A DNA stretch of 64,000 nucleotides from Geobacteraceae bacterium (lineage in GTDB: Bacteria > Desulfobacterota > Desulfuromonadia > Geobacterales > Geobacteraceae), in contig WSYB01000015.1 of the NCBI GenBank assembly GCA_009773645.1, positions 23,130-87,129 of the forward strand, read 5' to 3'. Numbering within the stretch: position 1 is the stretch's first letter; every line of letters begins with the position of its first letter. Made by a program: the position numbers and the translations under genes. Under the pieces are notes generated by a model. It was not told the origin of the DNA and did no database searches. It saw only the letters and a list, made by a program, of their open reading frames with translations. Positions 27,682-34,778 of this stretch are shown in pieces.

Positions 27682-27812
27682 CCGGCCTGAATAATCCGGT
27701 GGTACAGTGCGCGTAAAAATAAATTAATTGATAAATGATATTGATTGAGCTAGAATCCAATGCCGGACTTAAACAGTCCGGCATATTATTTTATTTTCCA
27801 GGGGAGAAAAGC

Positions 27813-28799
27813 ATGAAATTCAGGGGGACTCTTATTCTGGCTTTAATGGCTTGCAGCGTCACATTTGCAACGGCACTGGAACTCAAAGACGTAACCTTCG
27901 ATACCAAGGGTGCGGGAAAGGTTGTGTTCAGCCATAACGCACACCTGAAAAAAAAGGCGAAGAAAACTGCCAATATAAGCTGTAAGGCGTGCCATAACGC
28001 CAACATGCGGCTGAACGTCCGTTACACTATGGCGGACATGGAAAAGGGGAAATCGTGCGGTATGTGTCACAACGGCAAGACTGCCTTCACTATAAGCAAG
28101 TGCACGGAATGCCACAAGGTGCGCGATATCACCTACAAAGTCAAGGAAACCGGGCCGGTTGCCTTCAGCCACACCAAGCATCTGAAAACCATGCAGTGTA
28201 ACTCATGCCACACCAAACTCTATTTGGCCGGACCCAACAATAAACATGTCTCCATGGCGGAGATGGAAAAGGGGAAATCCTGCGGCGCATGCCACAACGG
28301 GAAAAAGGCATTTGACATAGGCAAGTGCGCCACATGTCACCCGGTCAAGGAAATAACCTTCAAAGTCAAGGAAACCGGCCCCACCCACTTCAGCCACAAG
28401 AAGCATATTGAAATGTACAAGTGCGGCGATTGCCACTCAAAGCTCTATGCGGCCGGACCCAACAATAAACGTGTCTCCATGGCGGAGATGGAAAAGGGGA
28501 AATCCTGCGGTGCATGCCATAACGCCAAAGATGCCTTCGCAGTTGCCGACTGCGCAAAATGCCACCCGGTCAAAGAGGTCGATTTCAAGTTAAAAGACAT
28601 AGGCAATGTGAAGTTCAGCCATACCTTCCACCTCGGCATGTACAAATGCGGTGAATGCCATACCGGCATCTACCGCCCCTCATCCGGAAACAAGGCGGTA
28701 TCCATGACCGAAATGGAACAAGGGAAATCGTGCGGCGCATGTCACGACGGCAAGTCTGCCTTCACGGTAAAAGAAAACTGCGACAAATGTCATAAGTAG
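27813..28799 (+). CDS. Twelve-heme cytochrome built of four c7-type triheme repeats
   Basis: 328 residues from the Met with GGGGAG upstream (27813). Signal peptide about 1-21, then four repeats of about 75 residues, each with FSH..H and three CXXCH: CKACH/CGMCH/CTECH, CNSCH/CGACH/CATCH, CGDCH/CGACH/CAKCH, CGECH/CGACH/CDKCH. This is the arrangement of Geobacter c7 polymers (GSU1996 type), long periplasmic electron wires. Repeats two and three share a stretch of about 65 nt with very few mismatches (28228-28293 and 28453-28518), showing recent internal duplication. Last cytochrome of the operon. Confidence 0.93.
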   Translation: MKFRGTLILALMACSVTFATALELKDVTFDTKGAGKVVFSHNAHLKKKAKKTANISCKACHNANMRLNVRYTMADMEKGKSCGMCHNGKTAFTISKCTECHKVRDITYKVKETGPVAFSHTKHLKTMQCNSCHTKLYLAGPNNKHVSMAEMEKGKSCGACHNGKKAFDIGKCATCHPVKEITFKVKETGPTHFSHKKHIEMYKCGDCHSKLYAAGPNNKRVSMAEMEKGKSCGACHNAKDAFAVADCAKCHPVKEVDFKLKDIGNVKFSHTFHLGMYKCGECHTGIYRPSSGNKAVSMTEMEQGKSCGACHDGKSAFTVKENCDKCHK

Positions 28800-32362: not shown

Positions 32363-33322
32363 ATGCCCGACTGTCTTATCCACAAGGATCTCCGCATCAA
32401 CTCTTACGGCTCTTATCTGCGCCGCCGGTTCCGCTGCCGGGTCAGCAAGGTCAACGTGGACGGCGGCTTCACCTGCCCCAATCGCGACGGAACAAGGGGG
32501 AGCGGCGGCTGCATATACTGCGACAACAGCTCGTTCTCCCCGGGCGGCACTCAGCCCGATATTCCGCTCGAAGCCCAGATGGCGGAGGGGATGGCCTACC
32601 ATCGAAAAAGGCTGGGGAGCGAAAAATTCATCATCTATTTCCAGAAGCACACCAACACCTACGCCCCTGTTGCCAAGCTGCGAGATCTTTTCAGCCGGGC
32701 ACTGGCCCACCCCGACGTGGTGGGGATCTCCGTCGGCACGAGACCCGATGCCCTGTCCGGCGAGGCGCTTGAGCTTCTGGAGGAGCTGGCGCAAAGCCGT
32801 TACGTCTGCCTGGAACTGGGGCTGCAATCCATGGACGACGCCATTCTCCGGCAGATAAACCGCGGCCATACCCTGGACGAATATCTCGAAGCCATCGAGC
32901 GGGCAGCCCACCGTGGCATCGACATCTGCACCCATCTCATCTACGGCTTTCCCGGTGAGACCCGCGGCGGGTTCCTGAAAACCGCCGAGTTGATCGCCTC
33001 GCTTCCCATAAATTCCTTGAAGCTCCACCAGCTCCACGCGGTCAAAGGGACCGCGCTGGCCGACTTATACTACCGCGGAACATTTGCCCCGCTTACCCAC
33101 GAAGAATATGTGGCGGCCGTCTGCGACTTTCTTGAACGGATTCCGGCGCATATGGCCATCCAGCGGCTCTACGGCTCGGCGCCCCTAGCCATCCGGGTTG
33201 CCCCCACATGGGACCTGAAAAACAACCAGATGTGGTATTCGGTGATAAACGAGCTGAAGCGGCGTAACACCTGGCAGGGGTGCAAGCTGGACGGAGAATG
33301 CTGCAAGGTGAGCAACCTGTGA
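32363..33322 (+). CDS. YhcC-like radical SAM protein (TIGR01212 family)
   Basis: 319 residues. The opening INSYGSYLRRRFRCRVSKV and NVDGGFTCPNRDGTRGSGG followed by CIYCDN gives the family's spread-out Cys motif (C..(10)..CxxC), and LELGLQSMDDAILRQINRGH and IYGFPGE are Elp3-like radical SAM strands. The substrate is not established for the family. It starts 3 nt after thiE and may be co-transcribed by chance of position; a thiamine role is not implied. Confidence 0.88.
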   Translation: MPDCLIHKDLRINSYGSYLRRRFRCRVSKVNVDGGFTCPNRDGTRGSGGCIYCDNSSFSPGGTQPDIPLEAQMAEGMAYHRKRLGSEKFIIYFQKHTNTYAPVAKLRDLFSRALAHPDVVGISVGTRPDALSGEALELLEELAQSRYVCLELGLQSMDDAILRQINRGHTLDEYLEAIERAAHRGIDICTHLIYGFPGETRGGFLKTAELIASLPINSLKLHQLHAVKGTALADLYYRGTFAPLTHEEYVAAVCDFLERIPAHMAIQRLYGSAPLAIRVAPTWDLKNNQMWYSVINELKRRNTWQGCKLDGECCKVSNL

Positions 33323-33396
33323 AAAGTGAAACGTGAAAAAACATGAAGCCTCAATTCACCCTTCACCCTTCACTTATTTTAAATACGGAGGAAACC

Positions 33397-34053
33397 TTGA
33401 GAACCATCAGACTTGTCGGCACTAACGAAGAGTACCCCATCGGCAAAATCCTCTGCATCGGCCGCAACTATGCCGAGCATATCAAGGAGCTGGGAAACGA
33501 GACCCCCGAAGCGCCGGTTATCTTCATAAAACCGGCCACTGCCGTTATCGGTAAGGGGGAAGAGATCGTCATCCCCCCCTATTCGCAGGAATGTCACCAC
33601 GAGGCGGAACTGGCGCTTCTGATCGGGAAGAAGGGGAAGGATATCCCGGTGGTGGAGGCAATGGGCCTCATCGCCGGTTACGGGGTCGCCATTGATCTGA
33701 CCCTGCGGGACGTGCAGGCGGAATTGAAGAAGAAGGGCCTTCCGTGGGAGATCGCCAAGGGGTTCGACACCGGGTGCCCCCTATCCGATTTCGTGGCGGC
33801 CTCGCAGGTGAAAGACCCCCAGAACCTTCGGATCAGGCTCACGGTCAACGGCGTCGTGAGGCAAGACGGCAACACCTCCCTGATGATCCACCGGATCGCC
33901 GAGATTGTGAGCCATATGTCCGGCATTTTCACCCTGGAGCCGGGGGACGTGATCCTTACCGGCACACCCGCCGGTGTCGGCCCCATCACCTCAGGCGACC
34001 GGCTGGTCGCCGATATTTCCGGGGTGGGGAGCCTTGAGGTGAGCGTCAGATAA
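33397..34053 (+). CDS. Fumarylacetoacetate hydrolase-family protein
   Basis: 218 residues from a TTG at 33397 that follows GGAGG; the ATG at 33343 lies in low-complexity repeat sequence and has no ribosome site. CIGRNYAEHIKELGNE opens the FAH fold. Metal ligands are in HHEAELALLIGK (ExE) and AIDLTLRDVQ (Asp). DVILTGTPAGVGP is the C-terminal family motif. Members hydrolyse or decarboxylate acylpyruvates and oxaloacetate; the substrate here is undetermined. Confidence 0.88.
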   Translation: MRTIRLVGTNEEYPIGKILCIGRNYAEHIKELGNETPEAPVIFIKPATAVIGKGEEIVIPPYSQECHHEAELALLIGKKGKDIPVVEAMGLIAGYGVAIDLTLRDVQAELKKKGLPWEIAKGFDTGCPLSDFVAASQVKDPQNLRIRLTVNGVVRQDGNTSLMIHRIAEIVSHMSGIFTLEPGDVILTGTPAGVGPITSGDRLVADISGVGSLEVSVR

Positions 34054-34106
34054 GTGCACCCGGCGGCCTGCCACAAGGTTTGGGTTTCAATAATCGTACT
34101 ATTTCG

Positions 34107-34136
34107 TTGACTTTTCAATCGCCCGGCGGTTAGACT
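34107..34136 (+). promoter_or_regulatory. Probable sigma-70 promoter of the UGA-containing gene
   Basis: TTGACT, 18-nt spacer, TAGACT, 31 nt before the ATG at 34167. It shows the small gene is likely transcribed on its own. Confidence 0.5.
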
Positions 34137-34166
34137 TTATTCAAGTAAAACCATTGGAGGTCTGAT

Positions 34167-34313
34167 ATGGATACCCACAAGGAATGCCCCGAATGCAAAG
34201 GGCTGATGGTCCTCCTCCCCGGATGAGGCGGGCTCTTCTGGCGGTGCCAGAAGTGCGGCAAGAAAATTCCGTTTGCCGGCGACGACCTGAAAGGCTGCGG
34301 CTGCAGCGAGTAA
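34167..34313 (+). CDS. 48-codon zinc-ribbon protein with in-frame UGA (possible selenoprotein)
   Basis: ATG with GGAGG 6 nt upstream, then 19 sense codons, TGA at 34224-34226, 28 more sense codons and TAA. The frame is meaningful on both sides: CPEC (residues 7-10) before the TGA and CQKC (27-30) after it make one zinc ribbon, and the tail ends GCGCSE. So translation must pass the TGA for the fold to exist. The 8-bp hairpin just after the TGA matches published bacterial SECIS rules. Alternatives: a nonsense mutation from Trp, Arg or Gly (single base change) or a sequencing error. Promoter and ribosome site intact. Without homologues I cannot decide. Confidence 0.6.
34235..34253 (+). other. 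bSECIS-like hairpin
   Basis: CTTCTGGC and GCCAGAAG pair over 8 bp around a GGT loop. The loop begins 16 nt after the TGA and has G as first base. The bacterial SECIS consensus asks for a small apical loop 16-37 nt downstream of UGA with G among its first two bases, so both criteria are met, the distance at the lower limit. Confidence 0.5.
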
Positions 34314-34340
34314 CGATCAAGGGGGTGACGACACTCCGGC

Positions 34341-34778
34341 TCAGACACCTCGCAGCGTATCAATAACCTCTTTCACCTTTTCCGGCTCATCCGTGCCGAT
34401 GCGCAGCCGTTTATTATGTCGCGTACGAATCTCGACCGCTTTCAGCCCGGAAACATTGAACAACCAGCCATGGGGGGTAAACCTGATCCCCCAGCCGTAA
34501 TACCAGGGATTGCTCACAACGTCCACCGTATCAATATCTTCCAGTGTTATTCTCTTCTTCACTATGCCATTTGAAAAATAGAAAACCAGCCCCCTCTCGT
34601 CAATTTCAATGGTAAGTGAATGGAACAGATAGGTACTTGCGGCCAGCACCGCCAGGACAGCCACCCCGCCCACCGTGATCTCGGTGGACAGCATGACACC
34701 TGAAACCGCCACCATGGCCACTGCCATAGAGCCGGTCATGAGATACCCCCGTTGCTCGTGTCGATAAAGCATGCTCAT
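34341..34778 (-). CDS. Membrane protein with bacterial PH-like domain
   Basis: 145 residues: two hydrophobic helices (about 12-32 and 35-55) then a beta-rich domain (LTIEIDERGLVFYFSNGIVK, ITLEDIDTVDVV, VEIRTRHNKRLRIGTDEPEK) that looks like a bPH domain. Role unknown. Convergent with the UGA gene. Confidence 0.65.
   Translation of the reverse strand: MSMLYRHEQRGYLMTGSMAVAMVAVSGVMLSTEITVGGVAVLAVLAASTYLFHSLTIEIDERGLVFYFSNGIVKKRITLEDIDTVDVVSNPWYYGWGIRFTPHGWLFNVSGLKAVEIRTRHNKRLRIGTDEPEKVKEVIDTLRGV

Follow-up and report, generated by a model that had tools for sequence, protein, structure and literature searches.

A Geobacterales branch of the dual CXXC small selenoprotein superfamily with a predicted selenocysteine at an in-frame UGA

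Proteins of the FmdB type are small, Cys-rich proteins of the zinc-ribbon type, and the small selenoprotein OS_HP3 is reportedly traced to an Olavius symbiont paper. PMC13188914 lists an FmdB-family selenoprotein with a UxxU motif in Table 1 and enters the NCBIfam family NF041197, "dual CXXC motif small (seleno)protein", twice in the same table, as OS_HP3 (RxU) and as DW (GxU), with no function given there; hypothetical protein DW is also named in PMC12013277. None of the entries in Table 1 of PMC13188914 is described as the branch reported here, and the accessible part of the lists published in 2006 for the selenoproteomes of three Geobacter species contains no such protein (PMC1794560). A search of a limited library with limited terms retrieved no text with UGGLFWRC or LFWRCQKC, and PGUGG gave two chance hits in papers on tree genetics.

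We analyzed a 64,000-nucleotide stretch of a Geobacteraceae bacterium genome (hereafter the window) that carries a 48-codon gene with an in-frame UGA. The predicted product and NF041197 (OS_HP3; DW) were found to be similar in their core spacing, Sec column and small size and in the bSECIS-like hairpin that follows most UGA forms, but they were not identical. In particular, the window branch has PGUGG where NF041197 has RxUR, lacks the C-terminal half and the CDRI-type end, and ends in a CXC tail; in addition, UGA is present at all 57 of its loci found, and its neighbor is a gene of the fumarylacetoacetate hydrolase (FAH) family. The FmdB-family selenoproteins carry Sec within a UxxU or CxxU pair, whereas the window protein keeps all four knuckle Cys residues and its Sec is an extra one. 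Judged from sequence comparison, it is very probable that Sec is inserted at UGA codon 20 and that the gene belongs to a separate Geobacterales branch around NF041197.

Gene layout and the hairpin after the UGA codon

The features of the locus are listed in Table 1. With the UGA read as Sec, the window gene would encode a 48-residue product in which CPEC, U, CQKC and the CGC tail follow one another, so that six Cys residues and the Sec bring seven S/Se groups into this short chain. The original prediction had described a GGAGG site, a TGA as codon 20 and the CPEC and CQKC pairs on either side of it, and the sequence coordinates bear out this layout.

Table 1. Coordinates of the predicted selenoprotein gene, its elements and its upstream neighbors in the window.
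Feature	Position	Strand	Remarks
Radical SAM protein TIGR01212 (MnmL/YtqA)	32363-33322		321 bits; directly before the FAH gene
FAH-family gene, possibly in the same operon	33343-34053	+	NF007967 240 bits, PF01557; immediately upstream and co-oriented in 48/57 loci
Promoter-like TTGACT-18-TAGACT	34107-34136	+	Consensus match only, 9/12 positions
GGAGG ribosome-binding site	34156-34160	+	From the sequence
Predicted selenoprotein gene	34167-34313	+	ATG 34167, TAA 34311-34313; 48 codons plus TAA; MDTHKECPECKGLMVLLPG-U-GGLFWRCQKCGKKIPFAGDDLKGCGCSE
First putative zinc-ribbon knuckle CPEC (C7, C10)	34185-34196	+	Cys invariant in the alignment of 32 branch sequences
UGA codon 20, predicted to be read as selenocysteine	34224-34226	+	TGA in 57/57 homologous loci; Cys codon in 25/25 non-UGA superfamily loci tested
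Putative bacterial SECIS hairpin CTTCTGGC-GGT-GCCAGAAG	34235-34253	+	Arms 34235-34242 and 34246-34253, loop GGU 34243-34245; identical in 57/57 loci
Second putative zinc-ribbon knuckle CQKC (C27, C30)	34245-34256	+	Invariant in the 32-sequence branch alignment; coding partly within the SECIS 3' arm
C-terminal CGC motif (C44, C46), possibly resolving cysteines	34296-34304	+	Columns at least 90% conserved in the 32-sequence branch alignment

According to the published bSECIS rule, the hairpin has a loop of 3-9 nt and a stem of 4-16 bp, with a G in loop positions 1-2, a distance of 16-37 nt from the UGA and an MFE of -7.5 or lower (PMC13188914). The window hairpin agrees with every term of this rule: eight Watson-Crick pairs enclose a 3-nt GGU loop, 16 nt lie between the UGA and the loop, and the 40-nt stretch with the hairpin has a folding energy of -18.1 kcal/mol (z -2.39; equally good values came from 6 of 200 shuffles). 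Fold and coordinates thus confirm what had been claimed for the hairpin from the letters, namely an 8-bp stem with a GGT loop at 16 nt and conformity with the published distance and loop-G rules. When all 2105 TGA triplets on both strands of the window were scanned for a perfect stem, 8 bp or longer, that closes a loop of 3-8 nt and has the right spacing and a loop G, a comparable hairpin followed ten of them, two of the ten owing to the same hairpin. Taken alone, the hairpin is therefore mildly unusual and modest evidence; it goes far beyond chance because the TGA and an identical hairpin are kept at all 57 homologous loci.

Conservation of the UGA codon and the selenocysteine machinery

Homologues were searched for with the protein against 196 relatives and with the branch alignment against 141 genomes of the order. 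The alignment-based search identified the gene in 57 of the 141 genomes, its own genome included (about 40%, 15 genera), among them cultured Geomonas, Trichlorobacter, Citrifermentans and Oryzomonas strains, and found no match in the remaining 84. At each of the 57 loci, the TGA is followed by the identical 19-nt hairpin, and a sense codon occupies the UGA place at none. The comparison of homologues that had been proposed as a check on Sec thus came out in its favor, with UGA conserved throughout and no Trp, Arg or Gly codon at any locus. The residues before the Sec vary, and PG is not fixed (PAUGT in L063, AAUGK in L067). In 56 of the 57 genomes the gene lies in one frame with one TGA, and in the remaining genome (G028) it is split. 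This copy, from Geotalea toluenoxydans (L069/L121), has one base fewer between the UGA and the hairpin and is out of frame, and it is either a decayed gene or an assembly error.

A point mutation in a dispensable gene had been named as the main alternative. A nonsense mutation or a sequencing error would suit the out-of-frame homologue L069/L121 and the lack of a match in 84 of the 141 genomes, but the same TGA recurs at every locus in 15 genera, the residues after it are conserved, and a sense codon is found at none of the loci; the UGA conservation refutes this explanation, to which we assign next to no probability.

We also scanned the genome contigs of 84,980 species for the peptides FWRCQKC and M[IVL]L[LMI]PGCGG, which yielded 109 pattern matches and 44 relatives. 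Forty-three of these were labeled as Geobacter and kin, Pelobacter, Desulfuromonadaceae or Deltaproteobacteria; TGA plus hairpin was present in 43 of the 44, L121 being the exception. The second pattern, which spells Cys at the Sec place, returned no Cys form within the branch, and in 20 chosen genomes without the selenoprotein, neither a remnant nor a Cys form was found downstream of the FAH gene (best tblastn E 0.11). The only relative labeled with another phylum was L120 (4351-4527), from a Methylomirabilota draft, which reads CPKCHIEMLVFGDUGGSFWRCQKCG, has a longer C-terminal part and carries a GUU loop in place of GGU. Its genome contains selB (368.9 bits), and horizontal transfer or a binning error is possible.

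The differences between the window gene and 55 homologues were counted by codon position. For codons 7-19 they amounted to 162, 45 and 378 at positions 1, 2 and 3 (378 of 585 at the third), and for codons 21-22 and 30-35 to 115, 71 and 233 (233 of 419 at the third). This third-position excess on both sides of the UGA indicates that both halves are translated in one frame. Within the hairpin, the codons were frozen: F24, R26, C27, Q28 and K29 are each encoded by one and the same codon throughout the 47 tabulated loci, and L23 is CTC in 46 of the 47 and CAC in one. By comparison, only 1 of 65 invariant degenerate residues in the adjacent FAH gene (48 loci) keeps a single codon (Fisher p 5e-7), and outside the hairpin of the same gene the invariant residues C7, C10, L16, P18, G21, C30 and G31 all vary in codon. 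As the frozen positions include loop bases, the pattern suggests that the sequence of the RNA is recognized and not its pairing alone; a hairpin in which no nucleotide differs among 57 loci offers a natural probe of the SECIS bases read by SelB in Geobacterales.

A freeze at the nucleotide level that exceeds what pairing alone needs would also be expected if the UGA were a real stop that ends a 19-residue peptide and the hairpin were regulatory, for example selenium- or stalling-dependent, and not a SECIS. Against this stands the same-frame, protein-level selection on the residues and Cys pairs beyond the UGA. Re-initiation was rejected, as no ATG, GTG or TTG lies in frame between the UGA and the TAA of the window gene, and relatives have Cys at this place and an open frame. 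In addition, the spacing and the loop match the published bSECIS rule (PMC13188914), and we regard a true stop as very improbable.

The genome of the window was found to contain the components for Sec synthesis and insertion that had been suggested for checking: selA (617 bits), selB (383.6 bits, G000:C14), selD (347.6 bits) and tRNA-Sec (79.5 bits vs a gathering cut-off of 47). The selD gene carries a TGA of its own, after which the minimum-energy fold has, at a spacing of 17 nt, a stem of 8 bp and a 3-nt GG-loop, nearly the layout of the window gene. A selB match better than 1e-90 was obtained for 52 of the 57 carriers, and the remaining five genomes are drafts that are 52-85% complete. When 103 good genomes of the order were compared, the gene was carried by none of the 10 with a selB match weaker than 1e-60 vs 42 of the 93 others (p 0.004); these counts were read by eye, the genomes are related and a broken selB may lie behind a match near 1e-55, and the co-occurrence of selB with the gene is only suggestive. 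It is well supported that SelB with Sec-tRNA(Sec) decodes UGA codon 20 as Sec under the direction of the hairpin that lies 16 nt further downstream.

Placement around NF041197

Of the NCBIfam models, NF041197 matched the six scanned branch members best, with 19.3-25.2 bits against a cut-off of 40, and none of the six reached the cut-off of any NCBIfam model. Their matches to NF041197 stop at profile position 28-31, and the C-terminal part (positions 32-53) is unmatched. L120 scored 18.0 bits, whereas two UGA loci of the phylum, L124 (53.8 bits) and L125 (47.9 bits), both exceeded the cut-off. In the 196 relatives, NF041197 was over the cut-off in none and below it in 11 genomes, elsewhere than at the window gene; among 395 genomes drawn from the phylum, it was over the cut-off in 87. 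When the branch alignment was compared with that of 23 NF041197 relatives (hhalign), the two profiles aligned over 31 ungapped columns with a probability of 97.2% (E 3.7e-11), and Sec fell on Sec/Cys. The NF041197 members whose sequences were read show the spacing CX2C-X9-[U or C]-X6-CX2C of the window protein, a few with an inserted residue or an altered first pair. The short motifs of hypothetical protein DG (NF049953, GUxG) and of the VPGUxxT family (NF041383) also fit PGUGG in a comparison by motif only (PMC13188914), and neither family was among the NCBIfam matches listed for the six branch members or L120. Four loci outside the order (L128, L129, L203 and L204) were rejected as relatives, being Cys-rich proteins of a different type. 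In L196, a weak NF041197 match of 22.7 bits, the Sec place is taken by Ala, and this protein may be an unrelated ribbon.

To compare the Sec place over the superfamily, we used 40 loci, made up of the 30 top NF041197 matches and ten chosen UGA loci and thus not random, of which 25 have a Cys codon and 15 a UGA. Cys at this position in homologues had been named as support for Sec, and it was found in all 25 non-UGA loci tested, all of them distant relatives outside the branch. The pairing of Sec with Cys rests on such relatives (the 31-column alignment), because no Cys form occurs within the branch. By our own implementation of the published rule, a bSECIS-like hairpin follows the codon in 13 of the 15 UGA relatives vs 8 of the 25 Cys relatives. 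The distance to the loop is 16 nt in the window branch, whereas it is 21-23 nt in 11 of these 13 hairpins and 16 nt in two.

These data also bear on a readthrough in which the UGA would be decoded as Trp or another amino acid. We found no specific support for it; Trp is encoded by TGG in the same gene (W25), the relatives have Cys and not Trp (25 of 25 tested), and the Sec machinery and the hairpin are present, which makes such decoding extremely improbable.

A further branch of the phylum, also below the NF041197 threshold, has the same Cys/Sec spacing as the window branch, with UGA in 13 of 15 aligned sequences. In the profile comparison, this GRU branch was linked to NF041197 with a probability of 97.6% and directly to the window branch with only 8.8% (E 0.0038). 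The GRU protein, CxxCGGxAxIxGRUANAxVVCxxCG, was seen in many genomes of the phylum at 20-37 bits (e.g. L175, L182, L183, L186, L190, L202 and L209). As these scores lie under the cut-off of 40, this UGA protein is probably missed as a selenoprotein, and it may correspond to DW, the GxU form. The window branch likewise suggests that parts of a selenoprotein superfamily lie hidden below this cut-off.

By sequence comparison, the window gene is a new, unannotated Geobacterales branch of the NF041197 superfamily. The original prediction of a selenoprotein outside the usual CxxU redox families was supported as regards Sec, but the gene is no lone novelty, as the superfamily had already been predicted to include selenoproteins (NF041197; PMC13188914, Table 1). 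What is added is a selenoprotein branch in which each copy found has the UGA and which about two-fifths of the Geobacterales genomes searched carry.

Predicted fold, neighborhood and possible role

The structure was modeled with AlphaFold2 from 32 sequences with Cys in place of Sec (pLDDT 74.8, pTM 0.49). The model contains strands at residues 13-19, 22-27 and 33-35, and the first β-hairpin turns at residues 20-21 with residue 20 at the turn. Two CXXC knuckles, which are invariant, and a three-stranded sheet, which comes from the model, are the features of a zinc ribbon, and the two CXXC pairs likely form a small one. Searches with the window protein gave no Pfam zinc-ribbon model over its gathering cut-off (best zf_UBZ at 17.5 bits and Zn_ribbon_6 at 16.2 bits), and none of the 194 matches that Foldseek gave with the model reached E 0.001. 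RNA polymerase subunit P was rejected as a homologue, since the best PDB sequence match in the branch-alignment search reached only E 0.013. Among solved structures, zinc ribbons from Rpb9, topoisomerase I and ZifS came nearest to the predicted fold but weakly so, with Z up to 4.6 and an rmsd of 2.4 over 40 residues for 6ted_I (VIA); a fold likeness at Z 4.6 shows no function. To our knowledge, none of these three zinc ribbons contains Sec. The model would place the Sec at the tip of a β-hairpin between the CXXC pairs and away from the metal site, that is, outside the thioredoxin fold and outside the metal-ligand positions.

In the proposed mechanism, the two CXXC pairs would form the small zinc ribbon, the Sec would be exposed at the hairpin turn away from the zinc, and the C-terminal CXC tail would come close enough to resolve it. 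A single Cys close to the C-terminus (CDRI-type end) is frequent among NF041197 members, while others, e.g. several of those ending in IIY, are without it; judged from the sequences, this single Cys fits the idea of a resolving Cys.

A different use of the Sec, as a ligand for a metal or metalloid in sequestration or delivery and not as a redox catalyst, would draw on the seven S/Se groups in 48 residues and on a CXC tail near the Sec loop that would suit soft metals, and Sec has been suggested as a metal ligand in other small selenoproteins (PMC13188914). The Sec was modeled away from the CXXC site, and the window neighbors named by family search (FAH, TIGR01212 radical SAM, ThiG and GIY-YIG) are not metal-resistance genes; we consider a ligand role unlikely.

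The FAH-family gene lies 20-116 nt upstream of the selenoprotein gene on the same strand in 48 of the 57 loci, and co-transcription is therefore likely. In the other nine loci, one has the FAH gene 995 nt away, two are at contig ends, and six have none within 1.5 kb. The gene had been credited with its own promoter; a promoter-like pair was indeed found, but in view of this close upstream neighbor the statement holds only in part. An FAH-family gene is present in 117 of the 141 genomes of the order vs 57 for the selenoprotein, and since FAH genes also occur without it, the operon link may be mere neighborhood.

Bacterial FAH proteins of the YcgM type have oxaloacetate-tautomerase activity. We tentatively suggest that the selenol may act in thiol/selenol redox or in the capture of electrophiles or metals, be resolved by the C-terminal Cys and perhaps serve or protect the FAH-family enzyme, a role that we hold to be possible. 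A more specific version, which we think rather unlikely, would make the zinc ribbon a rigid stalk that presents the Sec at its β-hairpin tip and the CXC a resolving pair, so that the 48 residues would be a minimal stand-alone module for selenol redox or for the trapping of electrophiles, with no relation to thioredoxin-like folds, that works with an FAH-family (oxaloacetate-tautomerase-like) metabolite-repair enzyme in Geobacterales. If this were true, the whole superfamily (NF041197 core, GRU branch and window branch) would share the stalk-and-tip design.

The recurrent neighbors of NF041197 relatives gave no functional lead, the largest group comprising 8 loci. An Rfam search of 34040-34360 returned only a chance match, and the 145-residue protein encoded just downstream on the minus strand (34341-34778) matched neither Pfam nor NCBIfam at E 0.001. 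ThiG is encoded further upstream of the TIGR01212 gene. Additionally, a 354-residue open reading frame on the plus strand of the window (27735-28799) contains repeated CxxCH motifs and looks like a multihaem c-type cytochrome.
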